Shown here piece after piece: positions 10,735 to 64,000 of a stretch of 64,000 bases of DNA. A program made the translations under genes and the position numbers. The number at the start of each line of letters is the position of its first letter. Position 1 is the first letter of the stretch. Source of the DNA: Amycolatopsis suaedae (GTDB lineage: Bacteria; Actinomycetota; Actinomycetes; Mycobacteriales; Pseudonocardiaceae); assembly GCF_004214935.1 (NCBI RefSeq), contig NZ_SFCC01000012.1, forward strand, positions 124,001 through 188,000. Direction: 5' to 3'. A model generated the notes under the pieces. It worked only from the letters and a program-made list of their open reading frames with translations, made no database searches and had not been told where the DNA came from.

Positions 10735-10748
10735 GGAACTCCCCTCGC

Positions 10749-44151: not shown

Positions 44152-44176
44152 GAGGGCGAGCGAAGTGGAGACAGCC

Positions 44177-45769: not shown

Positions 45770-46605
45770 TGCCGATGTCGCCGACGACGATCCGCCTCGG
45801 TGAGCTGACCTTCGACGTCGCGGACTCCGGCCCGGCGGACTCCCCCGTGGTCCTGCTGCTGCACGGTTTCCCGCAGTCCCGCCACTGCTGGGACGAGGTC
45901 GCCGGGCAGCTCAACGCGCACGGGTACCGCACCGTCGCCCCCGACCAGCGAGGCTACTCACCGGGCGCGCGGCCGCCCGCGGTCTCCGGCTACGCGATCC
46001 CGGAGCTGGTGGCCGACGTCATCGGGCTCCTGGATGCCATCGGCGTGGACACCGCACACATCGTCGGCCACGACTGGGGCGCGATAGTGGCCTGGTACAC
46101 CGCCGTCCACCATCCCGAGCGCACGCGGACCCTCACCGCGCTGTCCGTGCCGCACCCGGCCGCGTTCGCCTGGGCCCGCGACCACGACCCCGACCAGCGA
46201 CGGCGCTCGGCCTACATCGACCTGTTCCGTCGCGAGGGAGCAGCGGAGGACCTGTTTTTCGGTGAACAAGGCGGTCTGCGCCGCCTGTTCGTGCCGCCCC
46301 TCACCGAGGCGCAGGCCGCGCCCCATCTCGCGCTGCTGTCCACCCGCCCCGCGCTGACCGCGGCACTCAACTGGTACCGGGCACTCGACAGCGGCTTCGG
46401 CGACCTGGGCCCGTCGGCCGTGCCGACGACCTACCTCTGGAGCACGGACGATCCGGCGCTGGGCAGGGCCGGTGCCCTGCGCTGCGAGCGACACGTCACC
46501 GGCCCGTACCGGTTCGTCCGGCTGGACGGCATCAGCCACTGGATTCCCGAGCAGGCACCGGCCGCGGTCACCCGGGAGATCCTCACGCGCGCGGCGACGG
46601 CCTGA
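45769..46605 (+). CDS. Alpha/beta hydrolase (epoxide-hydrolase-like)
   Basis: The 278-residue enzyme has the oxyanion motif HGFPQSRHCWDEV, nucleophile Asp in GHDWGAIVAW and catalytic His in GISHWIPEQAP. HGFP plus HDWG is the epoxide-hydrolase-type pattern, in contrast to the HGNP dehalogenase-like gene at 35187. It is coupled to the FAD monooxygenase, so it may process its product (epoxide, lactone or ester). ATG 45775 is an alternative start two codons in. Confidence 0.85.
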   Translation: MPMSPTTIRLGELTFDVADSGPADSPVVLLLHGFPQSRHCWDEVAGQLNAHGYRTVAPDQRGYSPGARPPAVSGYAIPELVADVIGLLDAIGVDTAHIVGHDWGAIVAWYTAVHHPERTRTLTALSVPHPAAFAWARDHDPDQRRRSAYIDLFRREGAAEDLFFGEQGGLRRLFVPPLTEAQAAPHLALLSTRPALTAALNWYRALDSGFGDLGPSAVPTTYLWSTDDPALGRAGALRCERHVTGPYRFVRLDGISHWIPEQAPAAVTREILTRAATA

Positions 46606-46629
46606 CACCCTCGGCCCCGGTGCCCTGCC

Positions 46630-47208
46630 TCAGGACCCCTCGATCCGTTCGACGAGTTCGTCGCGGAACTCCCGCGCCGCCGCGAGCTCCGGTTCGTCGC
46701 CGGTCGCCCGCTTCAACGCGCCTTCCAGGATCTTCAGGCCCTGGCGTTCGTCGCCGCGCGCGTCCGCCTGCCTCGCGGCGTTCTCCATGGCTTTGGCGAG
46801 CTTGGTCCGTGCCTCGGGTTCGGTGGCCGCCTGGTTGATCCGGATCCAGTTGCCGCCCGGGTCGACGACGGTGAATCCGGTGTACCGGTCGTTGCGCAGC
46901 CGCGGCCGGGTCATCCGCGGGATGCCGGAAACAAGCAGCTTTCCGTGCACGGACCGCATTCCCGCCGCGAAGGCCTCGAACAGCTCGCCGGTGTCGGGCA
47001 CGATGACCAGGCACGTGCTGTACGACTGCGCCGGGTCGTAGCCGTCCATCCCGAAGAAGTGCAGATTGATGTCCTCCCGGCGCACCGCGACGTGCGGGTT
47101 CGGCCGCGTCTGCCGGTAGGTGATCTCGAAGCCGAGCATCTCGTAGAACGACGCGGTCTCGTCGATGGACGGGCAGGGCAGGAGCGGAATGGTCAGTTCG
47201 TTCGCCAT
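46630..47208 (-). CDS. VOC (glyoxalase/bleomycin-resistance fold) protein
   Basis: The 192-residue protein has an N-terminal vicinal-oxygen-chelate domain (LTIPLLPCPSIDETASFYEMLGFEITYRQ, then VHGKLLVSGIPRMT and FTVVDPGGNWIRINQ) of about 120 residues. A 65-residue helical tail follows that looks TPR-like (ARQADARGDERQGLKILEGALKRA). Enzyme activity is not predictable; metal ligands are incomplete, which favours a binding role. It is convergent with the hydrolase gene and downstream of the methyltransferase on the same strand. Confidence 0.82.
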   Translation of the reverse strand: MANELTIPLLPCPSIDETASFYEMLGFEITYRQTRPNPHVAVRREDINLHFFGMDGYDPAQSYSTCLVIVPDTGELFEAFAAGMRSVHGKLLVSGIPRMTRPRLRNDRYTGFTVVDPGGNWIRINQAATEPEARTKLAKAMENAARQADARGDERQGLKILEGALKRATGDEPELAAAREFRDELVERIEGS

Positions 47209-47281
47209 TGCCCGAAGCTAAGCCCGGGCCCGCCGAAACGACACCAAGCTCTTTGCTCAAGCGAACGGCCCGGCGGCCGGT

Positions 47282-48319
47282 TCACACCGGAGCGGCCTCG
47301 AGCAGCGAGAACCCGTCCGGCGCCGCGGGCAGCGGGTGCACGGTCACCGTGAAGCCCGCCGAGCTCAGCAACGCGTGGTACTCCGGCTCGGTTCGAAGCC
47401 GCCCGCCGACGTTGACGACGGAACCGACATCGTCGACGTAGACATGCGGCGGTATCGACCCGTCCACGGTGGCGGGCAGCATCTGCTCCACCAGCAGCAG
47501 GCGCCCCTTGTCGGTAGCCATGCTCTCGCGGCAGTTGGCCAGGATCATGGCCACCCGCTCGTCCTCCGGCCAGTTGAAGAGCACGCTCTTGCACAGGTAG
47601 ACGTCCCCGCGCGGGAGGGACTCGAAGAAGTCACCGGTCCGGATCTCGCATCGGTCCGCGACGCCGGCTTCGGCCAGCACGCGAGGCGCGTGCTTCACCC
47701 CGTCCTCGCGGTCGAGCAGGATGCCGCGCAGCTGGGGATGGGCGGCGAGGACGGCCGCGATGAACGGCCCGCTGCCACCGCCGATGTCCACGACCGTCGA
47801 GAACGGACCGAAGTCGTAACTGTCCACAATGATCGGAGCGATCACGCGGGTGTGCTCGATCATCAAGCGGTCGATGGATTCCCGGAACTCCGAATCCTGG
47901 CTCCAGTCGATGTCGCTCCAGAATCCCGGGTCGGAGGTGAACTCACTGGCCTGCTTGCCGGTACGGACAGCCTGGTCCAGCTTGGGCCAGGCTCCCCAGG
48001 CCCACTCGCCGACCTGGTACGCCGCCAGCTCGTGCACCGATCCGGGCGCGCCCGGCAGCAGCAACCGTCCGCGTGGGGCGAGCCGGAAGGCGCCCGGCCG
48101 CTCCTCGGTGAGGACCTCGAGTGCGGCCAGTGCCCGCAGCACGCGGGTCAGTGTCGGCTCGTGCGTCGACGTGGCGCGGGCCAGATCCCCGGCGGTCACC
48201 GTCGAGTCGCCGATCGCGTCCAGCAGCCGCAGTTTCAGCGTGGCGCCGAGCAGGAACGTGAACGTGTAGCCGTCGAGCATCCGCAGCAGCTCAGGGTCTT
48301 GCCAGGGTCCTCTGGTCAT
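47282..48319 (-). CDS. SAM-dependent O-methyltransferase (family 2, polyketide type)
   Basis: The 345-residue protein has an N-terminal winged-helix dimerisation domain (LLDAIGDSTVTAGDLARATSTHEPTLTRVLRALAALEVLTEE) and a Rossmann methyltransferase domain with SAM motif VVDIGGGSGPFIAAVL, then GDFFESLPRGDVYLCKSVLFNW. It belongs to the group of DnrK/TcmO/CalO-like enzymes that methylate phenolic hydroxyls of aromatic natural products. A role together with the FAD hydroxylase 1.5 kb away (hydroxylate then methylate) is possible but not shown. Confidence 0.88.
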   Translation of the reverse strand: MTRGPWQDPELLRMLDGYTFTFLLGATLKLRLLDAIGDSTVTAGDLARATSTHEPTLTRVLRALAALEVLTEERPGAFRLAPRGRLLLPGAPGSVHELAAYQVGEWAWGAWPKLDQAVRTGKQASEFTSDPGFWSDIDWSQDSEFRESIDRLMIEHTRVIAPIIVDSYDFGPFSTVVDIGGGSGPFIAAVLAAHPQLRGILLDREDGVKHAPRVLAEAGVADRCEIRTGDFFESLPRGDVYLCKSVLFNWPEDERVAMILANCRESMATDKGRLLLVEQMLPATVDGSIPPHVYVDDVGSVVNVGGRLRTEPEYHALLSSAGFTVTVHPLPAAPDGFSLLEAAPV

Positions 48320-48391: not shown

Positions 48392-49678
48392 TCAATTCGA
48401 CACATGACCGGTTCGCGGGGCGCGAACCCTGAGCACGGCGAGGGCTCCGACGAGTGAGATCACCCCGCTGACGACGTACAGGGCCGGGTAGCCGCCGAGC
48501 GAGCTGACGATCATCGCGGCGAGGAACGGGGCGACGACCTGTGGCGCGGTGACCGCGATGTGGAAGACGCCGAGATCGCGGCCCGTGTCGCCGGCCGCGG
48601 GCATGACCAGTGTCGCCAGCGCGAGATCGACACCGAGGTACAGGCCCATGCTGAAGGCGGTGACGGAACCGCAGATCAGCCAAGCCGTCCAGACCGGCCA
48701 CACGAACGGGACCAGCGTCGAGACCGCGGCCACGAGCCCGGACCCGAGCACGAACATCCGGTGGTGACCGAACCGGTCGACCAGGGGACCGGCGATGGCG
48801 GTGCTGACCACGGTGAGCGGAAGCACCAGCGTCGAGCCGATCGCCGCGGCCTCGGCCGCCGTCATGCCGGGCGGCAGCGTGACGTAGTCCTGCAGGACGT
48901 ACAGGCTGAAGCTGCTGACCATGGTGAATCCGAGGAAGAGCACCGCACGGGAGATGAAAACCCAGCGGTAGTCGCGGAATCGCAGACTGGAGAGCGTCTG
49001 GCGCAGCTCGGCGAGCACCGGCCGGCTCTCCCGGACCTCCGCGGCGGCCTCGCGCGGCTCCCGCGTGAGCCAGGCACCGACCAGCGAGGCGAGCGGCACC
49101 AGGATCGCCAGGACCAGATAGCCGGTGGCGATCGCGTCGGCGAAGTACGCGCCGATCTGGACCCCGACGACCCCTCCGATGGGCAGCCCCAGCCCCTGGA
49201 TCGTGCTGGCCAGACCGTGCCGGTGCGGGGGAATCCGGTCGGGGATCACCGCGAGGATGACGTTGAGCCCGATGTTCACCAGTGCCTGCATCAGAAACCA
49301 GCCGACGACGAGTCCGGCGACCGTCGCCGAGGTGCCGAGCATGATCAGCGAACCGGCGGTGCCGAGGCCGCCGAAGAAGATCCACGGTGCCCGCCGGCCC
49401 CACCTGCTCCGGGTGCGGTCGGACCGGATCCCGATGAACGGCGGCACGGCGAACGAGGCGATCGCCGCGATCCCGGTCACCAGCGCGAGTGCGGACGGGG
49501 CGCCGTCGCCTGCGATGAGCCGCGCCTGGGTGGGCAGCAGTATCTGGAGTGCTCCCGAGATCGCCGCGTAGGCGCAGACGTTGAGCACGAACATCGACAG
49601 CATGATCGGCCACACCCGCACCGTCCGGGCGGCCGTGCCGGTGGCTAGTTCTTCCTGCTGGGGAGCTTGCTGGGACAC
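48392..49678 (-). CDS. GPH-like MFS glycoside transporter
   Basis: The 428-residue protein has 12 hydrophobic segments. The loop after TM2 reads GIRSDRTRSRWGRRAPWI, the D-R-T-x-S-R-W-G-R signature of the glycoside-pentoside-hexuronide and sucrose transporter group. It probably imports a sugar or glycoside with a cation. GTG 49678 is chosen because GGAGG lies 7 nt upstream. It is divergent from a ROK regulator with an inverted repeat between, and near the GH89 operon, so it likely supplies the GH89 substrate. Confidence 0.82.
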   Translation of the reverse strand: MSQQAPQQEELATGTAARTVRVWPIMLSMFVLNVCAYAAISGALQILLPTQARLIAGDGAPSALALVTGIAAIASFAVPPFIGIRSDRTRSRWGRRAPWIFFGGLGTAGSLIMLGTSATVAGLVVGWFLMQALVNIGLNVILAVIPDRIPPHRHGLASTIQGLGLPIGGVVGVQIGAYFADAIATGYLVLAILVPLASLVGAWLTREPREAAAEVRESRPVLAELRQTLSSLRFRDYRWVFISRAVLFLGFTMVSSFSLYVLQDYVTLPPGMTAAEAAAIGSTLVLPLTVVSTAIAGPLVDRFGHHRMFVLGSGLVAAVSTLVPFVWPVWTAWLICGSVTAFSMGLYLGVDLALATLVMPAAGDTGRDLGVFHIAVTAPQVVAPFLAAMIVSSLGGYPALYVVSGVISLVGALAVLRVRAPRTGHVSN

Positions 49679-49781
49679 GGGCAGGCCTCCGGGCTCGAAG
49701 GCCGCGCCGGCCCTGGCGGCGACATCGCCAGGACGGGCCGGGTACCGGTTCGGGTGAGATTCGTACGTAGCCTCCAAAATC

Positions 49782-49797
49782 CGAACATAGAAGTTCG
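49782..49797. promoter_or_regulatory. ROK operator candidate
   Basis: CGAAC-ATAGAA-GTTCG lies inside an A+T-rich patch, with flanks AAATC and ATTT extending the symmetry imperfectly. It lies between the divergent transporter and ROK genes. The central spacer of 6 bp, rather than 4, argues against a LexA site. Confidence 0.5.
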
Positions 49798-49910
49798 ATT
49801 TCTGAAAAAAGTCTCCGGCCATAGCTTTCACCTGCAAGGCTGGTCACCCAGCCCGGACGGACTGGTGGCCGATTTTCGTCCGAAGCTCCTCAGACCGGTA
49901 AGGTGAGGGA

Positions 49911-51110
49911 ATGACTGACCGCTCGCGCTCGCCGCGGATCGAGTCGCCCGCGTCGATCGGGTCCGTGTTCGACCTCATCCGCCGCGGGACCGCACGCACC
50001 CGGCGGGAGATCTCCCGGCAGACCGCGCTCGCCCCGTCCACCGTCTCGCTGCGGGTGGATTCCCTCATCGCGGCCGGCCTGGTCGAGGAAGCGGCGAGCG
50101 GGCAGGCCACCGGCGGCAGGCAGCCGCGGTTCCTGCGGGTGCGCGGAGACGCCGGGGCGGTCGTCTCGGTCGCTCTCGGCACGCACCACTTCCGCCTCGC
50201 GGTCGCCGACCTCGTCGGGCGGGTGCTGCACGTGACCGAGTGCCCGATCGACGTCGCCCTCGGGCCGGCCGCGGCGATGCGCGAGATCTGGGAGCGGACC
50301 CTGATCGCGCTCGGGGACGCCCGCGTCGACGCCGGCGCCGTGCGCGGGATGGCGCTGGGCGTCCCGGCTCCGATCGACTCCCGGCTGGGCACCGTGACGT
50401 CCTCGGCCCAGTTGCCGGGCTGGGGCCAGCAGAACCTCTATGACCTGATCAAGCGGCACACCGAGCTCCCGGTGTCGATCCAGAACGACGCGAACCTCCT
50501 GGCACTCGCGGAATTCCGGGCCGCCGGCCCGGACGTGGGGCACATGCTCGCGGTGAAGGTCGGCAGCCGGATCGGCTCCGGGGTCGTCGTCGGCGGCCGG
50601 CTGTACTCGGGCTCGAGCGGTGCCGCAGGAGAGATCAGCCACTCCCGTTCGTCCGGCCGGTCGGCCATTCACTGCTGGTGTGGCACGCCGGACTGCCTCG
50701 AGTCGGTCGCCGGCGGCGCGGCGCTGGTCGCCAGGCTCCGGCAGGAGGGCTACGACATCGGCGGAACAGCCGATCTGGTCGCACTCGCCGGCGCGGGTGA
50801 CGCCCGGGCGGTCGAGCTGCTCCGCGAGGCAGGCGGACTGGTCGGCGAGGTGCTGTCCTACGTCGTCAACTTCCTCAACCCGGACCTGGTCACCTTCGGC
50901 GGGCAGCTCTCCGGCGTGCCGCCGTTCGTGGCCGCGATCCGCGCGGCGGTGTTCCAGCAGTGCCTTCCGGTGGTCACCGACGCGCTCGAGGTGCGGGTCG
51001 GCACCGTGGGCACCGACGCCGAGATTCTCGGTGGCATCCAGCTGATCCTGGATCGCACGCTGGACGTGAACCGGGTCGACAAGCTCGTGGCGAACGGCTG
51101 GACCGGCTGA
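49911..51110 (+). CDS. ROK-family transcriptional regulator
   Basis: The 399-residue protein has an N-terminal winged helix (about 15-75: GSVFDLIRRGTARTRREISRQTALAPSTVSLRVDSLIAAGLV) and a sugar-kinase-like ROK domain. The zinc motif CWCGTPDCLES and a preceding His-poor ROK signature (VKVGSRIGSGVVVGGRLYSGSSGAAGEISH) are visible. ROK repressors sense sugars or amino sugars such as GlcNAc. ATG 49911 follows TAAGGT by 6 nt, with GAGGGA also fitting as a ribosome site. It probably controls the divergent GPH-like transporter. Confidence 0.9.
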   Translation: MTDRSRSPRIESPASIGSVFDLIRRGTARTRREISRQTALAPSTVSLRVDSLIAAGLVEEAASGQATGGRQPRFLRVRGDAGAVVSVALGTHHFRLAVADLVGRVLHVTECPIDVALGPAAAMREIWERTLIALGDARVDAGAVRGMALGVPAPIDSRLGTVTSSAQLPGWGQQNLYDLIKRHTELPVSIQNDANLLALAEFRAAGPDVGHMLAVKVGSRIGSGVVVGGRLYSGSSGAAGEISHSRSSGRSAIHCWCGTPDCLESVAGGAALVARLRQEGYDIGGTADLVALAGAGDARAVELLREAGGLVGEVLSYVVNFLNPDLVTFGGQLSGVPPFVAAIRAAVFQQCLPVVTDALEVRVGTVGTDAEILGGIQLILDRTLDVNRVDKLVANGWTG

Positions 51111-51119: not shown

Positions 51120-51965
51120 TCAGGTCCGCGTGCGCCCGGCGCGGAAGTGCGCCCGGTACGCGCTGGGCGACATTCCTTTCACCGCGCGAAAACGGCGGTT
51201 GAAGTTGGACAGGTTGGTGAACCCCGACTCGGTCGCGATCGTGGCCACCGGCCGGTCGGTCTCCCGCAGCGACCGGCAGGCGGCGTTGAGCCGGACGACG
51301 GTGAGGTACCGGGTGACGCTGGAGCCGGTGCAGCGAGCGAAGAGCCGGCTCGCCGCGCTGGCGTTCATGCTCGCCGCGCCGGCGATGTCCTTGAGGGCGA
51401 GCGGGGACGCGTAGCCGGCGTGGATCTTCGCCACCATGGCTTCGACCCGGCCGGCCACCGCCCGGCTGACGGCTGGCCGCCGCTGCTCGGTGGCCAGCAG
51501 GCGATACGGCACCCGGCTCATCGTGACCAGCAGCCGGAGCAGCTCGACGCTGCGTTCGGCCGCGGGGAGCGTGCCCAGGCCGTCGGGCTGTTCCGGCGGA
51601 TCCGGGAACCAGATTCCGTTCGCGGCGTCGTCGAGCATGGCGGCGACATTCTCGAATGCCGGTGTATCGAATAGGCCGTCGCCGAGAAAATCCCGGCGGA
51701 AATGAATCACGACCGCCTCGTTCACCATGTCCTCGCCGGTCGACACGTAGCAGTGCGGCAGGTCGGGACCGAACAGGGCGAGGTCCCCCGACTGGTACTC
51801 CTCGACCGAATCGCCGGCCAGCCGGGTACCCCTTCCCCGGACCATGCGGGTCAGCTCGAACTCGCGGTGGAAGTGCCAGTACGGATCCAGCCTACCCACC
51901 ATGAAGTGCGCATACCGCCAGGTGAGCGGAGCGGCGGGGGTGAGGTGCTCGAAGGTCGGCCGCAT
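51120..51965 (-). CDS. AraC-family regulator
   Basis: The 281-residue protein has an N-terminal cupin-like sensor domain (WHFHREFELTRMVRGRGTRLAGDSVEEYQSGDLALFGPDLPH) and a C-terminal pair of AraC HTHs (LKDIAGAASMNASAASRLFARCTGSSVTRYL and VATIATESGFTNLSNFNRRFRAVKGMSPSAYR). This layout is usual in sugar-responsive activators. It is divergent from the beta-propeller/GH89/P450 operon with an inverted repeat at 52014, so it is the likely activator of that operon. ATG 51965 is chosen over a longer frame that lacks the family's usual start. Confidence 0.9.
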   Translation of the reverse strand: MRPTFEHLTPAAPLTWRYAHFMVGRLDPYWHFHREFELTRMVRGRGTRLAGDSVEEYQSGDLALFGPDLPHCYVSTGEDMVNEAVVIHFRRDFLGDGLFDTPAFENVAAMLDDAANGIWFPDPPEQPDGLGTLPAAERSVELLRLLVTMSRVPYRLLATEQRRPAVSRAVAGRVEAMVAKIHAGYASPLALKDIAGAASMNASAASRLFARCTGSSVTRYLTVVRLNAACRSLRETDRPVATIATESGFTNLSNFNRRFRAVKGMSPSAYRAHFRAGRTRT

Positions 51966-52013
51966 CGCGATCCTCCCGTTCCAGGGTGCAACGATCGTAC
52001 CAGGATCTGCCAC

Positions 52014-52026
52014 GACAAACGTTGTC
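52014..52026 (+). promoter_or_regulatory. Inverted repeat upstream of the GH89 operon
   Basis: GACAA-ACG-TTGTC lies 31 bp upstream of the first operon start (52057), in the AraC/operon divergent region. It is a candidate regulator site; AraC proteins often use direct repeats, so the protein bound is uncertain. Confidence 0.4.
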
Positions 52027-52056
52027 CGAATACCCCCGCCCAATCAGGGTTGGGGT

Positions 52057-53061
52057 ATGACCACATCCGTTCCCGACGGTACCGAAACCATTTCCCCGCC
52101 GATGACCTGGCAGATTCTCACGCCCGGTACACCGCGCAGCCCGGAATGGTCGCATTCGGGAATCGCGGTCGATCCGGCGGGGACGGTCTACTGGGCCGAC
52201 CCGGCAGGCGGGGCGATCCTGACCCGGCACCCGGCCGGGCGGCCGGGCCGGATCGAGGTACCGCTGCTCGAAATCCACGGGATCACCCACGAACACCGGG
52301 CCGGCCGGGAGGCGCTGTGGCTGGCCGACCCCGGGTTCAAGATGCGGCCACCCCGCTACGAGCCCGAGGTACGCGACGGGACGGCGGGGCGCTTCGACCT
52401 CGCGACGCGGGAGTTCCGCCCGCTCCCCCAGCCCGGCCTGCCCGCGTACGCCGGACAGCCGTGGCGGCCCACCGCGGTCGCGATCGCCGGGGAGCTCGTC
52501 GTCGTGGCCGACGGCTACGGCGCCGGCCTGGTGCACTTCTTCGACCGTTCGGGCCACCTGCTGACCCTGGACGGGAGCGAGACGGGGACGGGCTTCCGGT
52601 GCCCGCACGACCTGACGGTTCTCGGGCACGGCGGGCGGGAGCACCTGGTGGTCGCCGACCGCGGCAACCGCAGGCTCGTCTCGTACGGGCTCGACGGCGC
52701 GTACCGGCACAGCCTCACCCACCCCTCGCTGCGCAGCCCGACCGGTCTCGCCGTCCTGGGCGAGACGCTCGTCGTCACCGATCTCGACGGGGCGTTGCTG
52801 GCGGTCGACCTCGACGGCGGGCGGGTGGAGGAGATCGTCGCCTTCCCCGCCGGGGCGAAACAGCCGGGGTGGCCCAATCTCGAGCGGCCAGGCGCGACGG
52901 TGCGGCCCGAGCTGACCGTGGGGACGCTGAACAGCCCGCACGGGGTGGCCGCAGGACCGGACGGGTCCCTCTATCTCACCGAGTGGGTCATCGGCGGACG
53001 CGAGATCCGCCTGACCCCGGCCCATGACCGACACCCGACACCCGACAGGAGATTCCCGTGA
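52057..53061 (+). CDS. NHL/SMP-30-like six-bladed beta-propeller protein
   Basis: The 334-residue protein has repeated strand patterns of a beta-propeller: IAVDPAGTVYWADPAGG, ALWLADPGF, VVVADGYGAG, HLVVADRGNRRLV, TGLAVLGETLVVTDLDG, HGVAAGPDGSLYLTEW. The V-A-D-R-G-N-R-R-L-V blade is NHL-like; acidic metal ligands of gluconolactonases are only partly recognisable. It has no signal peptide. It could be a sugar lactonase acting on an oxidised sugar or a binding protein. The stop overlaps the GH89 start (GTGA), so the two are co-translated. Confidence 0.75.
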   Translation: MTTSVPDGTETISPPMTWQILTPGTPRSPEWSHSGIAVDPAGTVYWADPAGGAILTRHPAGRPGRIEVPLLEIHGITHEHRAGREALWLADPGFKMRPPRYEPEVRDGTAGRFDLATREFRPLPQPGLPAYAGQPWRPTAVAIAGELVVVADGYGAGLVHFFDRSGHLLTLDGSETGTGFRCPHDLTVLGHGGREHLVVADRGNRRLVSYGLDGAYRHSLTHPSLRSPTGLAVLGETLVVTDLDGALLAVDLDGGRVEEIVAFPAGAKQPGWPNLERPGATVRPELTVGTLNSPHGVAAGPDGSLYLTEWVIGGREIRLTPAHDRHPTPDRRFP

Positions 53062-55283
53062 TTGACCACTCCACGCCGACGGCGGCCACCACCGCCGCCG
53101 CGGCCATCCACCGGCTCAGCGGCATTCCCGCCGACGACATCCAGGTCGAGATCGACCCCGGCATCGCCGACGGGTTCCGGGTGCACGCCGCCGACGGCCG
53201 GCTGCACGTGGCGGCCTCGGGCGCGGGAGCGGCCGTCGCGGGCTACGCCGCCTTCGCCCGCCGGACCGGAGTCGCGCACGTGTCGCGGTTCGGTACCCGC
53301 CCGGTCGACCGCGCCCTGCCCGCCGACGTCGTGGTGGACCGGCGAGCGCGGCTGGACCTGCGCGTCGCCTACAACCTCACGGTCCCGGGGTACACGACGC
53401 CGTACTTCGACTGGCCGCAGTGGGAAGCCGAACTCGACCTGCTCGCCGCCGGCGGAATCAACGCCGCACACGTCACGCTCGGCCAGGAACTCGTCTACCT
53501 GGAGACGTTCACCCGGTTCGGGTACTCCGAGGAGGAGATCCTCCGGTGGCTCGGGCCGCCGTCGCACCAGCCGTGGCTGTGGCTGAACAGCATCCACAGC
53601 TTCGGCGAGGGCACGACACGTGCACTGGTGGACAAGCGTGCCGCGCTGGCCCGCCGGGTGCTCCGGCGAATGCGCGAACTCGACATCACCCCGATCCTGC
53701 CGGGCTTCAGCGGATCCGTCCCGCCGGAGTTCGGTGAGCGCAACGACGGCGCCCACGTCGTACCGCAGGGACTCTGGTTCATGGATCTCGCCGGGCCGCA
53801 ACGGCCGGACTGGCTCGATTCGACCTCCGGGGCCTACGCGGCGGTCGCCGAACGGTTCTACGCCGCGCAGCGTTCCGCGTTCGGCACCTACGGGATGTGG
53901 GCGGTGGACCTGCTGCACGAGGGCGGCAAGACCGGCGGGGTCGACCTCGCCGAGGCCGCCCGGGGCGTGCAGCGGGCCATGACCGCCGCCGATCCGGGCT
54001 CGACGTGGGTGATGCAGGCCTGGATCGGCAACCCACGCAGGGAACTGCTGGAGGCCGTCGACCTGTCCCGGGTCCTCGTGCTCGACCTGACCGGTGACGC
54101 GGCCGACGCCGACGGCGGCTTCCTCGGCGCGAAGTGGGCGCTGGGCATCCTGCCGAACTACGGTGGCCGGACGGTGCTCTACGGCGACCTGGCGACCGTC
54201 GCGGCGACGCCGGGGCGCTGGACCCCGGACGCCGGGCCGGCACCGGCCGGCCTGACGAACATGGCGGAAGGGGTCGCCAACAACCCGGTGCTGTGGGATC
54301 TGTTCAGCGACCTCGCGTGGGCCGACGGTGAAATCCACATCGGACGCTGGCTGGACGAGTGGACCACCGCCCGGTACGGCACCGCCGACGAGCACGCGCG
54401 TGCCGCCTGGACCACCCTGGCCGGCACGGCGTACGCGGCATGGCGGCAGGACGGCGCGGGCAGCACTCCGGTCGAGTCGCAGCAGGCCATGGCGGGAAAC
54501 ACGGTCGACGCCGCCGACCCCGCCAGGGGCCTCGTCCCGGCCGCCGTCGACCCCGCCGGATCGTCGGCGGACGCCTTCACGATGCCCTACAGCAGTACCG
54601 ACTCGGTGATCGCGGCCGTTCCCAGCATGCGGGCCAACCAGTCGAGCATGGTGGGGCCGCGCGCGCTGCCCTACCCCGAGAACGCACTCATCCCGGCACT
54701 GCGGCAGCTGCTGGCCGCCGCGGATTCCGTGCACACCAAGGGTTTCGAGTACGACCTCGTCGACGTCGCCCGCCAGGTGGCCGACGACGTGGCCCGCGCC
54801 GCACTGCGGGCCGTCGCCGAGGCGGCCGAGGCGAAGGATCTCGGTGCCTACGACCGGGGCACGGCCGCCTTCCTGGAACTGATCGACGCGCAGGAGACGC
54901 TGCTGGGCACCAACGAGCACTTCCTGCTCGGGCGGTGGCTCGACGACGCCAGGGCGTGGGGCTCCACGCAGGACGAGGGCCGTTACCTCGCCGAGGAAGC
55001 CAAGCGCCTGCTGACCTCCTGGGGCTACGAGGACTCCACCTTCCTGATCGACTACGCGAACCGGGGCTGGGCCGGCCTCGTCGGCGACTACTACCGCCGC
55101 CGCTGGAGCACCTGGCTGACACAGGTACGGAAGGCCCTCACCGGGGAGGCCACGACGCCGGTCGACTGGTACCGGTTCACCGACGACTGGATCAGGAGCG
55201 CCACCCCGTACCCGAGCCGGCCGCACGGTGACCCGAGGGCGGCCGCCGCCGCGGTACTCGCGATCGCCGAACGGCTCACCTAG
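53058..55283 (+). CDS. GH89 alpha-N-acetylglucosaminidase (NAGLU family)
   Basis: The 741-residue protein has the three NAGLU regions: an N-terminal alpha/beta domain (to about 100), a TIM barrel starting LRVAYNLTVPGYTTPYFDWPQWEAELDLLAAGGIN (about 101-134), and a C-terminal helical domain. Probable catalytic acids are Glu288 in DLLHEGG and Glu404 in NMAEGVANNP, both in the positions of the family's paired Glu residues. GH89 enzymes remove terminal alpha-linked GlcNAc. No signal peptide is present, so the substrate must be imported. It is clustered with ferredoxin, reductase and P450 genes, an unusual partnership. Confidence 0.88.
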   Translation: MIDHSTPTAATTAAAAIHRLSGIPADDIQVEIDPGIADGFRVHAADGRLHVAASGAGAAVAGYAAFARRTGVAHVSRFGTRPVDRALPADVVVDRRARLDLRVAYNLTVPGYTTPYFDWPQWEAELDLLAAGGINAAHVTLGQELVYLETFTRFGYSEEEILRWLGPPSHQPWLWLNSIHSFGEGTTRALVDKRAALARRVLRRMRELDITPILPGFSGSVPPEFGERNDGAHVVPQGLWFMDLAGPQRPDWLDSTSGAYAAVAERFYAAQRSAFGTYGMWAVDLLHEGGKTGGVDLAEAARGVQRAMTAADPGSTWVMQAWIGNPRRELLEAVDLSRVLVLDLTGDAADADGGFLGAKWALGILPNYGGRTVLYGDLATVAATPGRWTPDAGPAPAGLTNMAEGVANNPVLWDLFSDLAWADGEIHIGRWLDEWTTARYGTADEHARAAWTTLAGTAYAAWRQDGAGSTPVESQQAMAGNTVDAADPARGLVPAAVDPAGSSADAFTMPYSSTDSVIAAVPSMRANQSSMVGPRALPYPENALIPALRQLLAAADSVHTKGFEYDLVDVARQVADDVARAALRAVAEAAEAKDLGAYDRGTAAFLELIDAQETLLGTNEHFLLGRWLDDARAWGSTQDEGRYLAEEAKRLLTSWGYEDSTFLIDYANRGWAGLVGDYYRRRWSTWLTQVRKALTGEATTPVDWYRFTDDWIRSATPYPSRPHGDPRAAAAAVLAIAERLT

Positions 55284-55311
55284 CAACGACAGCAACGGAA
55301 AGGGAAACACC

Positions 55312-55503
55312 ATGAAGATCGAGGTCAACGACCCGGCGTGTGTGGGCTCCGGCCAGTGCGCCCTCGTCGCGGAGGACCTGTTCGACCAGGACGACGACGG
55401 CATCGTCGTCCTGCTGCGGGACCACGCCGGGCCCGAGCACCAGGACGCCGCCCGGCGCGCGGCCGCGCTGTGCCCGGCCCGCGCGATCACCCTGTCGGAC
55501 TGA
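55312..55503 (+). CDS. 3Fe-4S ferredoxin (P450-type)
   Basis: The 63-residue protein has only three cluster cysteines, Cys10, Cys16 and Cys54 (CVGSGQC ... LCP), typical of [3Fe-4S] ferredoxins that donate electrons to actinobacterial P450s. It is very acidic. It starts 28 bp after the GH89 gene with AAAGGGAAA upstream, and is followed 7 bp later by its likely reductase. Confidence 0.92.
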   Translation: MKIEVNDPACVGSGQCALVAEDLFDQDDDGIVVLLRDHAGPEHQDAARRAAALCPARAITLSD

Positions 55504-55510
55504 GCTGGCC

Positions 55511-56689
55511 ATGACCAGGCGGCACCGCACCGTGATCGTCGGTGCGTCCATCGGCGGATTCACCACGGCGGAGTCCTTGCGCCACAACGGATACGAGGGC
55601 CGGATCACGCTGGTCGGCGAGGAGCGGCACCAGCCCTACCACCGCCCGCCGCTGTCCAAGCAGGTCCTGGCCGGCGACTGGGCGCCCGGGGACGCGGCCA
55701 TCGCGCCGGCCGGGACGATCGCCACGCTGGGGATCGACCACCTCCCCGGCACGCGGGCGACCGGTCTCGACCCGGTCCGGCGCCTGGTCGAGACCACGAA
55801 CGGCCCGCTCCCGTTCGACTCGCTGGTGATCGCCACCGGGGTGTCCGCCAGGTGGCCCGGCCGGCGGGCCGCCCTCGCGGGCTGCCACACGCTGCGCACC
55901 CTCGACGACGCGGCCGCACTCGCCGCGGACCTCGACGGCGCGGCACGCGTCCTCGTCGTCGGCGCCGGGATTCTCGGCGGTGAGATCGCGGCCGGGCTGG
56001 TGAAACGCGGCCTGCCGGTGACACTCGTCGACCGGAGCCGGTCGATGCGGTTCGGCCAGGCAGGGACGCTGCTCTCGGCGCGGCTGGTGGCCCTGCACCA
56101 GGCGAACGGGGTGGACCTGCGGCTGGGCTGCCGGGTGGTCCGGTTGCTCGGCACGGACCGGGTCCGCGGCGCGGTGCTGTCCAGCGGAGCGGCGGTCGCC
56201 GCCGACGTCGTGGTGGCCGCGGTGGGCAGCCGCCCGCGAGTCGAGTGGCTCGCCGGGACGGGCCTGCGGCTCGCCGACGGGATCGAGTGCGACGCGGCGG
56301 GCCGGGCGGCCAGGGACATCCACGCCGTCGGCGACGTCGCGCACTGGCCGGGCGCGCCCCGCGTCGAGCACCAGCAGAACGCGATCGAACAGGCACACGC
56401 GGTGGCCGCGACGCTGTCCACCGGCGTCGCGCAGTCGCCGGACATCGTGCCCTTCTTCTGGTCGGAACTCCACGGAACCCGCATTCAGGCGTACGGGCGG
56501 TTCACCGGCGCGACCGCCCTCGAGGTGGTCGCCGGGGACCCGGCCGGCGGAAGGTTCGTCGGCGTCGCGACCCGCGGCGGCACGCCGGTGGGCGTCGTGG
56601 GATGGAACCTGCCGCGCGCCTTCCGCACCGTGCGGTCCCAGTTCACGTCCGGGTCACCGGACCTCGCAGAAAGGCAGCTCCGCACATGA
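55511..56689 (+). CDS. Ferredoxin reductase, FAD/NAD(P)-dependent
   Basis: The 392-residue protein is of the putidaredoxin-reductase type, with N-terminal FAD motif VIVGASIGGFTTAESL, R-P-P-L-S-K, the NAD-binding motif VLVVGAGILGGEIAAGL at about 150, and a second FAD motif DIHAVGDVAHWP. It transfers electrons from NAD(P)H to the ferredoxin encoded just upstream. The stop overlaps the P450 start (ATGA). Confidence 0.92.
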   Translation: MTRRHRTVIVGASIGGFTTAESLRHNGYEGRITLVGEERHQPYHRPPLSKQVLAGDWAPGDAAIAPAGTIATLGIDHLPGTRATGLDPVRRLVETTNGPLPFDSLVIATGVSARWPGRRAALAGCHTLRTLDDAAALAADLDGAARVLVVGAGILGGEIAAGLVKRGLPVTLVDRSRSMRFGQAGTLLSARLVALHQANGVDLRLGCRVVRLLGTDRVRGAVLSSGAAVAADVVVAAVGSRPRVEWLAGTGLRLADGIECDAAGRAARDIHAVGDVAHWPGAPRVEHQQNAIEQAHAVAATLSTGVAQSPDIVPFFWSELHGTRIQAYGRFTGATALEVVAGDPAGGRFVGVATRGGTPVGVVGWNLPRAFRTVRSQFTSGSPDLAERQLRT

Positions 56690-57903
56690 CAAGCCAGCTG
56701 AACACGCGGGCCACGGGGTGCCCCTACCCGCACCCGCCGACGATGCCAAGGGACGGCACGCCGTTCCGTCCCTCACCGTCGTTCGCGCGGTGGCGTGCCG
56801 AGGCGCCCGCGACCCGGATGACGGCCGAGGACGGCAACGTCGGGTGGTTCGTCACCGGTTACGAGCTGGCCCGCCAGGTACTCCAGGACTCCCGCTTCAG
56901 CCAGGCCGACCAGCGGACCCCGCTGGGCTCGGCGCCGGTGCCGGCGGAGACGCCGATCGACGAGGAGACCCTGCACGCCCTGGTCGCCGGCAACGTCCTG
57001 GGTCTCGATCCGCCGCAGCACACGAAGATCCGCCGGGTCGCGGTCCGGCGCTTCTCGGTCCGCGCGGTGCGCGGGCAACGGGAGGCGATCGGCGAGTTCA
57101 TCGAACGGCGGCTGGACGAGATTCTCGCCGCCGGGTCCACCGCCGACCTGTTCGAGGACTTCGCCGTCCCGGTGTCGGTCTTCGCCCACTGCCGGGTCCT
57201 GGGCATCCCGGACGGCAAGGCCGACGAGTTCGCCGCCCTCTTCGCCACCGAGGAACCGCGGGCAGGCGACATGGTGCGATTCGCGGCCGAGACCCTGGAG
57301 CTGAAGGCAGGCGACCTCGGCGAGGACACGATCAGCGACCTGCTGCGTTCGGAACTCACCGCGGGCGAGCGGCTGGGGATCACCACGGTGCTGATGGGGT
57401 CGGGGCGCGACGCGGTCGCGTACATGATCGGGACGATCATGGTCTCGTTGCTGTCGGATCCGGGCCAGCTGGAACTCCTGCGGCGGGAGCCCGGGCGGAT
57501 CCCCGCCGCCGTCGAGGAGTTCGTGCGGTTCCACGCGATGTTCGTCTCGGCGCATCCACGCACCGTGGCCGAGGACGTCACCCTGGAGGGGATCGACTTC
57601 CGCGCGGGCGAACCGGTCTGGGTGTCCACAGTGGCCGCCAACCGGGACGGCGAGCGGTTCCCGGATCCCGACACCTTCGACGTCACCCGGGAGGCGTCCG
57701 GGCACCTCGCGTTCGGGCACGGCATCCACGCCTGCATCGGGCAGCAGCTGGCCCGGGTGACGATCGCCGAGGCGATCACCCGGCTGCTGCGGCGCCTGCC
57801 GGTGCTGCGCCTGGTCGAGGCGGAGCAGCGGACGCCGATGGCCTTCGCGGGCAACCTGCCGACCTACGCCCCGGGGACCGTCCGGGTCAGCTGGGACGGC
57901 TGA
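56686..57903 (+). CDS. Cytochrome P450 with atypical I-helix
   Basis: The 405-residue P450 has heme ligand Cys350 in FGHGIHACIG, an ExxR motif in VEEFVRFHAM, and an HPRTVAEDV stretch. The I-helix reads MGSGRDAVAYMI where most P450s have AGHDTT/AGxET, so the conserved proton-relay Thr is missing (Ala/Val), as in P450eryF-like enzymes that rely on substrate-assisted catalysis. Its redox partners are encoded directly upstream. It shares an operon with a GH89 glycosidase, so its substrate may be a sugar or a glycoside aglycone. Confidence 0.9.
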   Translation: MTSQLNTRATGCPYPHPPTMPRDGTPFRPSPSFARWRAEAPATRMTAEDGNVGWFVTGYELARQVLQDSRFSQADQRTPLGSAPVPAETPIDEETLHALVAGNVLGLDPPQHTKIRRVAVRRFSVRAVRGQREAIGEFIERRLDEILAAGSTADLFEDFAVPVSVFAHCRVLGIPDGKADEFAALFATEEPRAGDMVRFAAETLELKAGDLGEDTISDLLRSELTAGERLGITTVLMGSGRDAVAYMIGTIMVSLLSDPGQLELLRREPGRIPAAVEEFVRFHAMFVSAHPRTVAEDVTLEGIDFRAGEPVWVSTVAANRDGERFPDPDTFDVTREASGHLAFGHGIHACIGQQLARVTIAEAITRLLRRLPVLRLVEAEQRTPMAFAGNLPTYAPGTVRVSWDG

Positions 57904-57910: not shown

Positions 57911-58564
57911 TCACGACGTCGCGATGCCCAGCACCGGATGTTCCGGTGTGCTCGACGGCAGTTCGTGGAAGCCGAGGCGGCGGTAGAACGCCAGCGCCCC
58001 CGGGTTGCCGGCGTCGACGCCGAGGAACAGCGCCGGCACCCCGCGCGCGGCGAGCGCCTCGCGGAACGTGTCGACCAGGCGCCTGCCGACACCCCTGCCC
58101 TGCAGCTCCGGCAGCAGGTTGATGTGCAGGTGCGCGGGGTAGTCGGCGACCTCCGGGATGGTGGTCACCTCGGGATTCAGGCCCGCCCAGACGAGCACTT
58201 CCTCGGTGATCACGGGGTGATGGCCGGTCGGAGGCCCGGGCGCCGGATGCCGCTTCGCGAACTCCGGCGCCCAGGACCGCCGCCACCACGCTGTGAACGC
58301 CTCGGTGTCGGCGACCCCGATCACGTAACCCAGGACGTTCGTCCCGTCGTCGGCGACGAAGGCGAGGTCGGGGGCGAACTCCAGGTAGGGCAGCGCGGCG
58401 ACGTCGGCGACGAGCGTGTCGTCGGAGTAGACGCCCGTGGCGTCGGCACCGGCCGCCCCGGTGAGCAGACAGACCCGCGCCACCGCGTCGCGGTCGGCCG
58501 GGCGGTACGGGCGGATCGTCAGCTCGCCCGGTTCGCCGGGCCCTGCCAGTGCGATGTCGTTCAT
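57911..58564 (-). CDS. GNAT N-acetyltransferase
   Basis: The 217-residue protein has a GNAT fold: TIRPYRPADRDAVARVC at the start, a central beta-bulge region (FVADDGTNVLGYVIGV), acetyl-CoA motif A LHINLLPELQGRGVGRRLVDTF, and a final FLGVDAGNPGALAFYRRLGF. It resembles actinobacterial GNATs annotated beside beta-N-acetylglucosaminidases (NagZ/OGA-like acetyltransferase domains). That link is suggestive next to a GlcNAc-ase but unproven. It is convergent with the P450 gene. Confidence 0.88.
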   Translation of the reverse strand: MNDIALAGPGEPGELTIRPYRPADRDAVARVCLLTGAAGADATGVYSDDTLVADVAALPYLEFAPDLAFVADDGTNVLGYVIGVADTEAFTAWWRRSWAPEFAKRHPAPGPPTGHHPVITEEVLVWAGLNPEVTTIPEVADYPAHLHINLLPELQGRGVGRRLVDTFREALAARGVPALFLGVDAGNPGALAFYRRLGFHELPSSTPEHPVLGIATS

Positions 58565-58741
58565 GACCTCAGCGTCGGGCAGCCATGATCCACGGGCAAC
58601 GCCGCGGTTGGCCGGAACCGGTACGTTCTTTGCCCCTCTCCCCCGGACTACGTCACCGGGCGTACCCGGCGAGCCGCCTGACGACGGATGCGCCGGCGAC
58701 GGCCGCGGGCCATCGTTGGGCGCGAAGGAGAGGTGAGGTCG

Positions 58742-60088
58742 ATGACTCGACACAAGCGGCGGCGACGAGGACTGCTCGCTCCCGCCCTCGCACTGGCGAT
58801 GCTGGTGAGCACACCGGCGGCACTCGCCGGGCAGCCGCGGCACCCGGTGGCCGGCTGGGTCCGGCACAACGCCGCGCCGCTGGAGCACGTGGACCCCGCG
58901 GCCCCGCTGGACGACCTGGCGCCGCTGCGCCGCGCGGTCGGCGACGCGTGGATCGTCGGGCTGGGCGAGTCGGTGCACGGGGCCGCCGAGCAGCAGACCC
59001 TCAAGCACCGCACCGTGCGGATGCTCGTCGAGCAGCTCGGGTTCCGCTCCATCGCCTGGGAGGAGCAGTGGACGACCGGGCTGGCGGTCGACGAGTACCT
59101 GCGCACCGGCGAGGGTGACCTGGCGGCGCTGGTGCGCGGGCTGGGCCCGCAGTGGCAGTCCCGGGAGATGACCGACACGCTGCGCTGGCTGCGCGACTTC
59201 AACGCCGGCCGGGCGGACAAGGTGCGCTTCGTCGGCGTCGAGTACTACCTGACCGGACTTGCCGCCTACACCGGCGTCGACACCTACGTCGCCCACGCCG
59301 CCCCCGGCCGGCACGCGGAGCTGCTGCGGCACCTGAAGCCGATCACGCCCCGCACCGGGAACATCGACGACCACATCACCTGGTTCGAGGCCCTGCCCGC
59401 CGCGGAGCAGCAGGCGGTCGTCGACGACGCCCGCCGGGTGCACGACCTGGTCGCCGGCCTCCCCGGCCGGCCGGGGCACGCGGTGGCGCTGCGCCACGCC
59501 CGGCAGATCCTGTCGTTCTTCGAGCACCTGATTCTGCCCGAGCCGGACACCCACACCTACCGGGACGCGCGCACCGCGCAGACCGTGCGCTGGTGGCAGG
59601 AACTGACCGGCGACAAGGTCGCGTACTGGGCGGCCAGCCCGCACACGGCCAACGCGCCGCGGCTGCGGATCGCCCTGCCGCCCGAGCCCGACCTGCGCTT
59701 CGCCGCCGCCGGTTCGCACCTGCGCCAGTGGTACGGGCGGCGCTACCTGTCGATCGGGTTCACCTTCGACCACGGCGCCGTCCGGCTGACGCCCGACCTG
59801 ACGGTCCCCCAGACGCCGCCGAAACCACACTGGTTCGAACGGCCCTTCGGCGAGACCGGAATCGCCCAGTTCACCCTGGACCTGCGCAGGCCGGCACCAC
59901 CGGCGGTGCGGGAATGGCTGCGGGCACCCGCCACCACCCGGGGCATGGCACACGCCGGTCCGGAGTCCTATGTGGACGGCGGCAGCCTGGGCCAGTGGTT
60001 CGACGTGATCGTCCACCGCCAGGAGGTGACCCCCATGCGGCCGGCGCCGGTCAGCCCGGATCGCGGTGCCGGCCGCGCGGCGGCGTGA
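58742..60088 (+). CDS. Secreted erythromycin-esterase-like protein
   Basis: The 448-residue precursor has a Sec signal peptide (MTRHKRRRRGLLAPALALAMLVSTPAALA, cleavage before GQ). The mature part is of the erythromycin esterase/EreA family with the conserved GLGESVHGAAE (Glu/His pair), a later AWEEQW and a C-terminal SIGFTFDHG. True Ere enzymes hydrolyse macrolactones; many actinobacterial members are secreted and have unknown substrates. GAAGGAGAGG precedes ATG 58742. Confidence 0.85.
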   Translation: MTRHKRRRRGLLAPALALAMLVSTPAALAGQPRHPVAGWVRHNAAPLEHVDPAAPLDDLAPLRRAVGDAWIVGLGESVHGAAEQQTLKHRTVRMLVEQLGFRSIAWEEQWTTGLAVDEYLRTGEGDLAALVRGLGPQWQSREMTDTLRWLRDFNAGRADKVRFVGVEYYLTGLAAYTGVDTYVAHAAPGRHAELLRHLKPITPRTGNIDDHITWFEALPAAEQQAVVDDARRVHDLVAGLPGRPGHAVALRHARQILSFFEHLILPEPDTHTYRDARTAQTVRWWQELTGDKVAYWAASPHTANAPRLRIALPPEPDLRFAAAGSHLRQWYGRRYLSIGFTFDHGAVRLTPDLTVPQTPPKPHWFERPFGETGIAQFTLDLRRPAPPAVREWLRAPATTRGMAHAGPESYVDGGSLGQWFDVIVHRQEVTPMRPAPVSPDRGAGRAAA

Positions 60089-62107: not shown

Positions 62108-63139
62108 GTGATGTCTCTGCACCAGGACGCCGTGGTGGTGGACTGCCACAACGACCTCATCCTCCTTGTCGACCACTTCGACCAGCGAAATCAGCCCGGC
62201 CACTTCAGCGACTTCTGGCTTCCCGAGCTGCGGGCAGGCGGAGTCGACGTCCAGATCCTGCCCATCTGCCTCGAACCGGCCTTCCAGTCCGAGGGCGGCC
62301 TGCGCCGCACGCTGCTGCTCGTCGAGCGCATCCACCGCCTCGCCGCCGAGCACAGCGACGACGTGGCGGTGTGCCTGACCGCCGCCGAGATCGACGCGGC
62401 CGTGGCCGCGGGCAAGATCGCCCTGGTCATCGCACTCGAGGGAGCACACGGGATCGGGCAGGACGTCGCGCTCGTCCGCACCCTGTACCGGGTGGGCGTC
62501 CGGGTCGTGTCCATGGCCCACTTCGGCCGCACGTTCCTCGCCGACGGCAGCGGCCTGGACACCACCTCACGGGGCCGGCTCACCCCGCAGGGCATCGAGG
62601 CACTGGCCGAGATGGAGGACCTGGGCATCGTCTTCGACATCAGCCACCTCGGCCTCGGCGGCGTCGACCACGTGCTCGAACTCGCCACCCGGCCGTTCCT
62701 GGCCACCCACTCGGCCTGCCTCGGCATCACCGACATCCACCGCAACCTGCACGACGACCACATCAAGCAGATCGCCCAGCTCGGCGGCGTCATCGGGGTG
62801 GCCGCGGCGATCCCGTTCTTCATCGACGCCCAGCACCCCACCGCCGACCGGGTCGTCGACCACATCGAACGGATCATCGAGGTGGCCGGCATCGACCACG
62901 TCGGGCTCGGCCCCGACTTCATCGACGACTACTACCAGCAGGTCTACGGCGGCTGGATCATCCCGCCCGAGTTCGCGGCCACCACCGCACACGCCGAGAT
63001 CGCCCGGCCGTCGGACCTGCCCAGGATCACCGACGCACTGGTACGGCGCGGATTCGCCGAGCCGGACATCCGCAAGATCCTGGGCGAGAACGTGCTGCGG
63101 GTCCTCCGGGACGTCCTGCGGGGCTCGGTCACCACCTGA
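62108..63139 (+). CDS. M19-family membrane-dipeptidase-like zinc peptidase
   Basis: The 343-residue TIM-barrel metallopeptidase has the ligand set of renal dipeptidase: H-N-D in VVDCHNDLI, a Glu in IALEGAHGIG, and His in DISHLG and THSACLGITDIHRN. It cleaves dipeptides or related amides, with D-amino acids possible at the second position. No signal peptide is seen, so a cytoplasmic role is likely. GTG 62108 has TAGACT 6 nt upstream (leaderless); the next codon ATG is an alternative. It overlaps the convergent P450 gene by 11 bp. Confidence 0.9.
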   Translation: MMSLHQDAVVVDCHNDLILLVDHFDQRNQPGHFSDFWLPELRAGGVDVQILPICLEPAFQSEGGLRRTLLLVERIHRLAAEHSDDVAVCLTAAEIDAAVAAGKIALVIALEGAHGIGQDVALVRTLYRVGVRVVSMAHFGRTFLADGSGLDTTSRGRLTPQGIEALAEMEDLGIVFDISHLGLGGVDHVLELATRPFLATHSACLGITDIHRNLHDDHIKQIAQLGGVIGVAAAIPFFIDAQHPTADRVVDHIERIIEVAGIDHVGLGPDFIDDYYQQVYGGWIIPPEFAATTAHAEIARPSDLPRITDALVRRGFAEPDIRKILGENVLRVLRDVLRGSVTT

Positions 63140-64000
63140 CGGGCAGCGCGTTGAGGTAGGTGCCGGCGTCGTGGCGGACATCCAGCTCCTCGAACGGCAC
63201 AGCCAGCCGCAGCCCGGGCAGCCTGCGCAGCAGGGTGGGCAGCCCGATCTGCAGCTCGGCGCGAGCCAGCGGCTGGCCGAGGCACTGGTGGACGCCGTAG
63301 CCGAAGGCGAGCTGTCCCCTGACGTTACGGTCGAGGTCGAGCACGCCGGGGTCGGCGACGAACGACGGGTCATGGTTGCCGGCCAGGTAGTTCAGTACGA
63401 CACCGTCGCCTGCCCGGATGACCTGCTCGCCGACCGTGATGTCGGCGGTCGCCACGCGCGGCAGCATCTCGGCGATGCTGAGGAAGCGCAGCAGTTCCTC
63501 GACCGCGCGGGCGACCACGGCCGGGTCGTCGGTGTCCCGGAGCCGGGCGAGCTGGTCCGGATGCTGGAGCAGCACCGCCGTGCCCATGGAGAGCATCCGG
63601 GCGGTGGTGTCGTGCCCGGCGATCAGCAGGGCGACACCGTTGATAGCCACCTGCTCGTGGGTGAGTTCGCCGGTCGCGACGTACTCGTGGACCAGGGTGC
63701 TGATGATGTCGTCGGCCGGCTCGCGTTCCTTACGGTGCACCAGATCGAGCAGGTAGGCGAACAGGGTCCGCGTGGCCTGCGCCTGCTCGTCGGCAGGCAG
63801 GTTCCGGTTCGTCATGGTCTTGCTGTTGCGCTGGAAGAACTCGTGGTCCGAATAGGGCACCCCGAGCATCACCGAGATCACCAGGGACGGGACCGGCAGC
63901 GCGAAGTCCGCCACGAGGTCGGCGGGCGGGCCCTTGCTGATCATCTGTTCGACGAACCCGTCCACCACTTCCTGGATCCGGGGCCGCATCGCGTCGATCC
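63129..64000 (-). CDS. Cytochrome P450, C-terminal part (5' end outside window)
   Basis: The visible 290 residues run from helix E/F to the C-terminus and stay open to the right edge, so the start lies beyond 64000; the Met at 63989 is internal. Canonical features are an I-helix LLIAGHDTTARML, an ExxR in VEELLRF, and the heme Cys in FGYGVHQCLG, giving a CYP105-like bacterial class. It contrasts with the P450 at 56686, whose I-helix lacks the Thr. No ferredoxin is adjacent inside the window. Confidence 0.92.
   Translation of the reverse strand, partial: IDAMRPRIQEVVDGFVEQMISKGPPADLVADFALPVPSLVISVMLGVPYSDHEFFQRNSKTMTNRNLPADEQAQATRTLFAYLLDLVHRKEREPADDIISTLVHEYVATGELTHEQVAINGVALLIAGHDTTARMLSMGTAVLLQHPDQLARLRDTDDPAVVARAVEELLRFLSIAEMLPRVATADITVGEQVIRAGDGVVLNYLAGNHDPSFVADPGVLDLDRNVRGQLAFGYGVHQCLGQPLARAELQIGLPTLLRRLPGLRLAVPFEELDVRHDAGTYLNALPVRW

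Follow-up and report, generated by a model that had tools for sequence, protein, structure and literature searches.

A conserved actinobacterial gene cassette joining a GH89 α-N-acetylglucosaminidase to a cytochrome P450 system, a putative PAL-like propeller and a GNAT acetyltransferase

Gene organization of the locus

The window, by which we mean the whole stretch of 64,000 nucleotides of Amycolatopsis suaedae DNA that was analysed, carries five tightly packed plus-strand genes at positions 52057-57903, all of them at the coordinates given in an earlier note on this DNA. The operon opens with a β-propeller gene (52057..53061), which overlaps by 4 bp with a GTG-started gene for a family GH89 α-N-acetylglucosaminidase (53058..55283). 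The gene for a 3Fe-4S ferredoxin (55312..55503) follows after a gap of 28 bp, and that for an FAD/NAD(P)H ferredoxin reductase (55511..56689) after a further 7 bp; the latter shares a 4-bp ATGA overlap with the gene for a class I cytochrome P450 (56686..57903). The flanking transporter and regulator genes were also found as the earlier note had described them: a GPH-like sugar transporter of the MFS on the minus strand (48392..49837; Pfam MFS_2, E 2.6e-15), a ROK-family regulator on the plus strand (49911..51110; Pfam ROK, E 1.9e-44), and an AraC-family regulator with a cupin sensor domain on the minus strand (51120..51965; Pfam HTH_18, E 2e-22). The start of the AraC gene was set at the conserved position 51965, the open reading frame itself opening at 52043.

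Three features had been missing from that description. A GNAT acetyltransferase gene lies on the minus strand (57911..58564), convergent to the five-gene operon; a 40-bp putative AraC operator occurs in two copies, one upstream of the operon (51988..52027, plus strand) and the other directly upstream of the GNAT gene (58594..58633, minus strand); and the propeller has a set of active-site residues of the type found in peptidyl-α-hydroxyglycine α-amidating lyase (PAL). Past the GNAT gene, an erythromycin-esterase family protein is encoded at 58688-60088, and a second P450-like open reading frame of 286 aa is located on the minus strand at 63129-63989, close to the window end. On the other side, positions 43457-48280 hold genes for a TetR regulator, an FAD aromatic-ring hydroxylase, an alpha/beta hydrolase, and an O-methyltransferase, which possibly constitute a separate aromatic or natural-product locus.

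Conservation of the cassette

The association of GH89 with the P450 trio, on whose conservation the earlier note had made its reading depend, extends beyond the window: the whole set of AraC, propeller, GH89, ferredoxin, ferredoxin reductase, P450, and GNAT genes recurs in four other genomes from two other families. In Sinosporangium siamense (locus L017), the genes are ordered as a divergent AraC gene, GNAT, propeller, GH89, ferredoxin, reductase, P450, and MFS, and the products are 84% (P450), 80% (GH89), 78% (propeller and ferredoxin), 77% (MFS), and 75% (reductase) identical to those of the window. The MFS gene of L017 is operon-borne. With the MFS proteins adjoining GH89 at L018 and L019, two loci described below, the window MFS has identities of 50-61%. 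In three genomes of one other actinobacterial family (G637, G583, and G565, with cassettes L051-L053), the identities are 71-72% for P450, 78-83% for ferredoxin, 54-55% for GH89, and 57-58% for the propeller, and the order is a divergent AraC gene, ferredoxin, reductase, P450, propeller, GNAT, a solute-binding protein, two permeases, and GH89. An ABC importer therein replaces the MFS importer of the window and L017; the enzyme set has remained constant while gene order and importer type changed. Within the latter family, the P450 was detected at E <1e-100 in 3 of 22 genomes, which are exactly the three with a cassette GH89. The genome scans used exact peptide patterns in sampled genomes, so that the spread of the cassette found here is a lower bound of the true one. 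Because the set recurs in other families with its order rearranged, the cassette is not a chance neighbourhood, and we are highly confident that it represents one functional unit.

Two additional loci, L018 from Nonomuraea and L019 from the genus of the window, share the GH89 clade of the cassette and contain GH89 with an MFS gene, with no propeller, ferredoxin, or GNAT gene nearby; no propeller was found anywhere in G029, the genome of L019. The L018 locus (6717-12073) consists of GH89, MFS, and TetR genes and a P450 gene convergent to the MFS gene, the P450 being 25% identical to that of the window; its position beside GH89 and MFS is a lead only. Among 29 GH89 loci outside the cassette clade, examined as ~20-kb stretches, none has a propeller, ferredoxin, or GNAT gene, and a P450 of any kind is present in two, both ~27% identical and 6-8 kb off. 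A general GH89-P450 association was rejected on these counts. Chance adjacency of the GH89 gene to a P450 operon with which it has nothing to do could draw on the two same-clade members that have GH89 and MFS without the P450 trio; it is nevertheless ruled out for practical purposes by the five-genome conservation and the 29-locus control, since co-location is preserved in three families together with rearranged order, overlapping genes, and a shared operator.

The same comparison bears on whether the locus is a biosynthetic or self-resistance tailoring cluster instead of a catabolic one. The O-methyltransferase (47282-48280) and FAD monooxygenase (44165-45769) genes in this part of the window would suit such a cluster, but neither lies near the four other cassettes, the partners that stay with the enzymes are the AraC regulator and importers for sugars, and zero assembly-line genes are present in any cassette, which makes this reading very improbable.

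Regulator and putative operator

The AraC orthologues, which are divergent from the cassette in the other genomes, are 51% (L017) and 54-55% (L051-L053) identical to the window protein. The putative operator has the form GCAA..ATCGTACC-N18-CGTTG and is found with fixed spacing in the AraC-operon intergenic regions of all five cassette genomes. A matrix was built from four sites with the window GNAT site left out, and this GNAT-side copy scores 35.9 bits, the next best score in the window being 11.7. In L017, the matrix locates sites at 2426 before the GNAT gene and at 3357 before the propeller gene, both of which had been used in matrix building, and a weaker site, not so used, at 4557 before the GH89 gene. 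Furthermore, an operator consensus of 14 fixed bases, composed after these sites had been seen, matches exactly at two places in the whole 7.5-Mb genome to which the window belongs, namely the operon and GNAT copies, and nowhere in the reversed control. From position alone, we infer that the AraC protein binds this 40-bp element.

The ROK regulator, which the earlier note had grouped with the AraC regulator, is adjacent in the window but has no match in the four other cassettes (L017 and L051-L053). These give no support to ROK as a core member, and its membership in the cassette is uncertain.

Glycosidase and P450 system

The GH89 protein matches Pfam NAGLU (E 1.7e-85) and NAGLU_C (E 2.6e-63). 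Its residues E288 (in HEGG) and E404 (in MAEG) are invariant in nine sequences; their aligned counterparts in 2vc9 are the glutamates of HEGG and TPEA, which we take to be E483 and E601 of CpGH89, with catalytic roles. From these family residues, α-GlcNAc activity is assumed for the window enzyme. The protein has no leader and is therefore expected to be cytosolic. Many GH89 proteins in the control loci begin with signal-like or Tat-like segments, and in the GH89 tree all five cassette enzymes fall into one leaderless clade with a support of 100/100.

The ferredoxin belongs to Pfam Fer4 and has three cysteines (Cys10, Cys16, and Cys54) of the 3Fe-4S type, and the reductase shows Pyr_redox_2 (E 3.7e-46) and Reductase_C domains. 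Assignment of the P450 was confirmed by Pfam, an intact haem motif (FGHGIHACIG), and an ExxR motif in the form of EFVR; with its adjacent ferredoxin and reductase, it has the composition of a class I system. In the I-helix sequence SGRDA, Ala243 replaces the usual Thr and is invariant in all five cassettes. As in P450eryF, an Ala at this place could be accommodated if a hydroxyl group of the substrate delivers the proton, which would suit a sugar. The nearest PDB relatives of the window P450 are natural-product P450s such as PikC, and the names of the 60 best-ranked ones include no recognisable CYP236A.

Propeller with a PAL-type active site

The propeller is a six-bladed NHL protein (AlphaFold2 pLDDT 86), and its model matches the PAL structure 3fvz with a Z score of 27.6 and an rmsd of 3.1 over 272 aligned residues. 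In the fold search, many other NHL propellers tie with 3fvz and the designed Pizza proteins score equally, for which reason the fold match was rejected as proof of PAL and residue alignment was used instead. In addition, searches of PDB sequences with the propeller profile were swamped by TRIM and Pizza repeats; PAL was therefore confirmed via a PAL segment that matched 3fvz (E 1.5e-114), the PAL letters then being taken from the 3fvz alignment. Comparison of propeller and PAL by hhalign gave a probability of 98.7% and E 1.4e-15. In this alignment, PAL residues H585, Y654, H690, R706, and H786 correspond to propeller residues H74, Y154, H184, R202, and H295, which are invariant in ten diverse propellers. 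We take H585, H690, and H786 of PAL to be zinc ligands and Y654 to be catalytic. Arg533, another active-site residue of PAL, is outside the aligned PAL segment, and the ADRxN sequence of the propeller is a general NHL motif. An active-site role is documented for R706 of PAL (PMC10303134). With five PAL active-site residues aligned to invariant ones, the propeller is not a bystander in the operon. We claim from these residues that the propeller may work like PAL, which falls short of saying that it is PAL, and we consider it fairly probable that it acts as a lyase cleaving the P450 product.

The proposed pair resembles the PHM-PAL system of peptide amidation, whose lyase completes animal peptide hormones and in which an oxygenase is followed by a six-bladed lyase of the Zn-His3 type with Tyr and Arg, and the window propeller retains all five aligned PAL residues. 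It differs in that the hydroxylase here is a P450 (PhyH elsewhere), whereas PHM is a copper enzyme, and in that the window propeller is bacterial, predicted to be cytosolic, and encoded in a sugar operon.

Four further loci place a distant homologue of the propeller beside another oxygenase, either a P450 or PhyH, which supports a link between this propeller type and oxygenases. In L072 (5133-10517), a LacI regulator, a sugar-type binding protein, a P450-reductase fusion, and a PAL-like propeller are encoded consecutively, with no GH89; a PAL-like propeller is flanked by two P450s in L057 and adjoins a PhyH oxygenase in L056. The fourth locus, L061 (577-13294), is on a plasmid of Embleya sp. 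NBC_00888, the one record obtained in the plasmid search with the propeller, and contains a secreted GH89, AraC-like regulators, a PAL-like propeller, an ABC sugar importer, and two PhyH oxygenase regions, one of which is split into two open reading frames. The L061 locus mirrors the P450 cassette, with PhyH as its oxygenase. Since it has PhyH and a GH89 that belongs to another clade than that of the cassette, the association of propeller and GH89 in Embleya appears to have arisen separately. No GNAT was found near the PhyH-propeller loci. In four loci (L073-L076) from freshwater-type actinobacteria with small genomes of 1.3-1.8 Mb, a PAL-like propeller has no oxygenase adjacent, which counts against coupling of propeller and oxygenase.

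Acetyltransferase

The GNAT protein is of the SsAT/O-GlcNAcase C-terminal type and contains the CoA-binding loop motif QGRGVG; counterparts with 67-76% identity are present in all four other cassettes. It falls in the same sequence family as SsAT (4bmh, E 1.9e-47), which binds acetyl-CoA and has a pocket suited to a small-molecule acceptor (PMC3919268); unlike SsAT, it is encoded in a GH89-P450 regulon. Glucosaminide N-acetyltransferases that enable the action of an N-acetylglucosaminidase are known for β linkages, as in the couple of RmNag and the Clostridium acetobutylicum enzyme, where acetylation turns a glucosaminide into the substrate of a GlcNAc-specific hydrolase (PMC4680927). A similar order of events could apply here, although the RmNag system has β linkages, a GH3-type hydrolase, and no oxidation. 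The lysosomal HGSNAT and NAGLU step of heparan sulfate degradation offers a second parallel, in that N-acetylation of an α-glucosaminide would precede hydrolysis by GH89. In contrast to that step, the cassette has a GNAT fold instead of the membrane protein HGSNAT, adds a P450 and a lyase, and lacks heparan enzymes. On balance, we lean towards a GNAT that acts ahead of GH89.

Proposed pathway and its alternatives

The cassette is slightly more likely than not to be a single regulon that serves to break down a small α-glucosaminide, taken up from outside and bearing a blocking substituent. The substrate class and the order of steps are inferred from the gene content. The MFS transporter, or the ABC system in the other family, would import the intact α-glucosaminide compound, and the P450 would hydroxylate the carbon beside the N or O of the substituent to give a carbinolamide or hemiacetal. 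From this intermediate, the PAL-like lyase would then release an aldehyde and set the amide, amine, or hydroxyl group free, as PAL does after PHM. Where a free amine is present, GNAT would N-acetylate the exposed α-glucosamine, and the cytosolic GH89 would finally hydrolyse the α-GlcNAc glycoside to GlcNAc and the aglycone. This scheme accounts for each conserved cassette gene. Because the GNAT, the propeller, and the P450 trio are jointly missing near GH89 in L018 and L019, an argument that covers these two loci and in which L018 has an unrelated P450 nearby, the data suggest that the three act together, for example in an oxidative N-dealkylation exposing an amine for acetylation before GH89. 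The more specific reading, namely a two-step oxidative dealkylation of the PHM/PAL kind (P450 or PhyH with a zinc propeller lyase) built into bacterial amino-sugar catabolism and followed by N-acetylation and GH89, is put forward tentatively.

The earlier note had compared the locus with P450 demethylation of 6-O-methyl-D-galactose (G6Me) in porphyran use by Zobellia and Formosa (Reisky et al. 2018, as described in PMC10033563). Both systems have a dedicated P450, ferredoxin, and reductase for sugar use, and oxidative removal of a block is proposed here as well. Unlike the G6Me system, the cassette has a conserved PAL-like lyase and GNAT, a cytosolic α-GlcNAc-type hydrolase, no dehydrogenase partner, and a different organism and regulator. 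Simple oxidative O- or N-demethylation is unlikely; here the P450 would release the methyl group in the form of formaldehyde, the glycoside without its methyl would be cut by GH89, and the propeller would have an auxiliary part in binding or an unrelated hydrolysis. The trio and the sugar importers do match the G6Me layout (PMC10033563), and such P450 trios exist without a propeller; but a methyl hemiacetal collapses spontaneously, which would make the conserved lyase superfluous, none of the five cassettes has the dehydrogenase gene that G6Me loci carry nearby for a zinc alcohol dehydrogenase (PMC10033563), and only with an amine as the target would the conserved GNAT be accounted for. Oxidative unblocking of an α-GlcNAc-type glycoside, as the earlier note proposed, is still the best class of explanation, and demethylation of the 6-O-methyl-galactose type is not specifically indicated because a dehydrogenase is lacking and that reaction needs no lyase.

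Alternatively, GH89 might act first and the P450 oxidise the freed aglycone, such as a cyclitol, terpenoid, or antibiotic, with the propeller as a lactonase or lyase that helps degrade the aglycone and the GNAT in detoxification. The PikC-type nearest relatives of the P450, the P450-propeller pairs without GH89 in L072 and L057, and the fold shared with propeller lactonases are in line with this. It is rather unlikely, however, in view of the GNAT-GH89 link, which indicates amino-sugar chemistry, of the occurrence of GH89 and importer without P450, and of the invariant residues, which are those of PAL in a residue check that covered PAL, not lactonase, residues.

Returning to the unblocking pathway, our guesses for the substrate include mycothiol-type GlcN-inositol, plant GIPC head groups, aminoglycosides, and N- or O-methyl glucosaminides. 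Several antibiotics and cell-surface glycans have α-glucosamine as a core unit, and the natural substrate could therefore be of wide interest. If the pathway is correct, a bacterial NHL-propeller family so far uncharacterised would gain a function, and so would a protein related to the C-terminal domain of O-GlcNAcase, for which bacterial substrates have so far been lacking. It would also represent a new pathway type, in which an α-glucosaminide becomes ready for GH89 through hydroxylation, cleavage by a lyase, and N-acetylation, and a first role for bacterial PAL-like propellers. Because every component has been named, from the regulator and its operator to the enzymes and the importer, specific assays are feasible. 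The parts of the cassette are of known kinds; in agreement with the earlier note, to whose author no described GH89-P450 pathway was known, no account of GH89 together with a cytochrome P450 and a ferredoxin was found in the open-access literature searched, in which their combination is undescribed.

P450 trios related to that of the cassette were also observed in L113 (7295-10853) and L115 (9629-13249), where an AraC gene accompanies a mini-operon of ferredoxin, reductase, and P450 genes with no propeller, the P450s being 44-50% identical to that of the window. The trio therefore has wider uses, a point against the proposed pathway; in L115, genes for an ABC importer of the sugar type and for an alpha-L-rhamnosidase lie next to the mini-operon.
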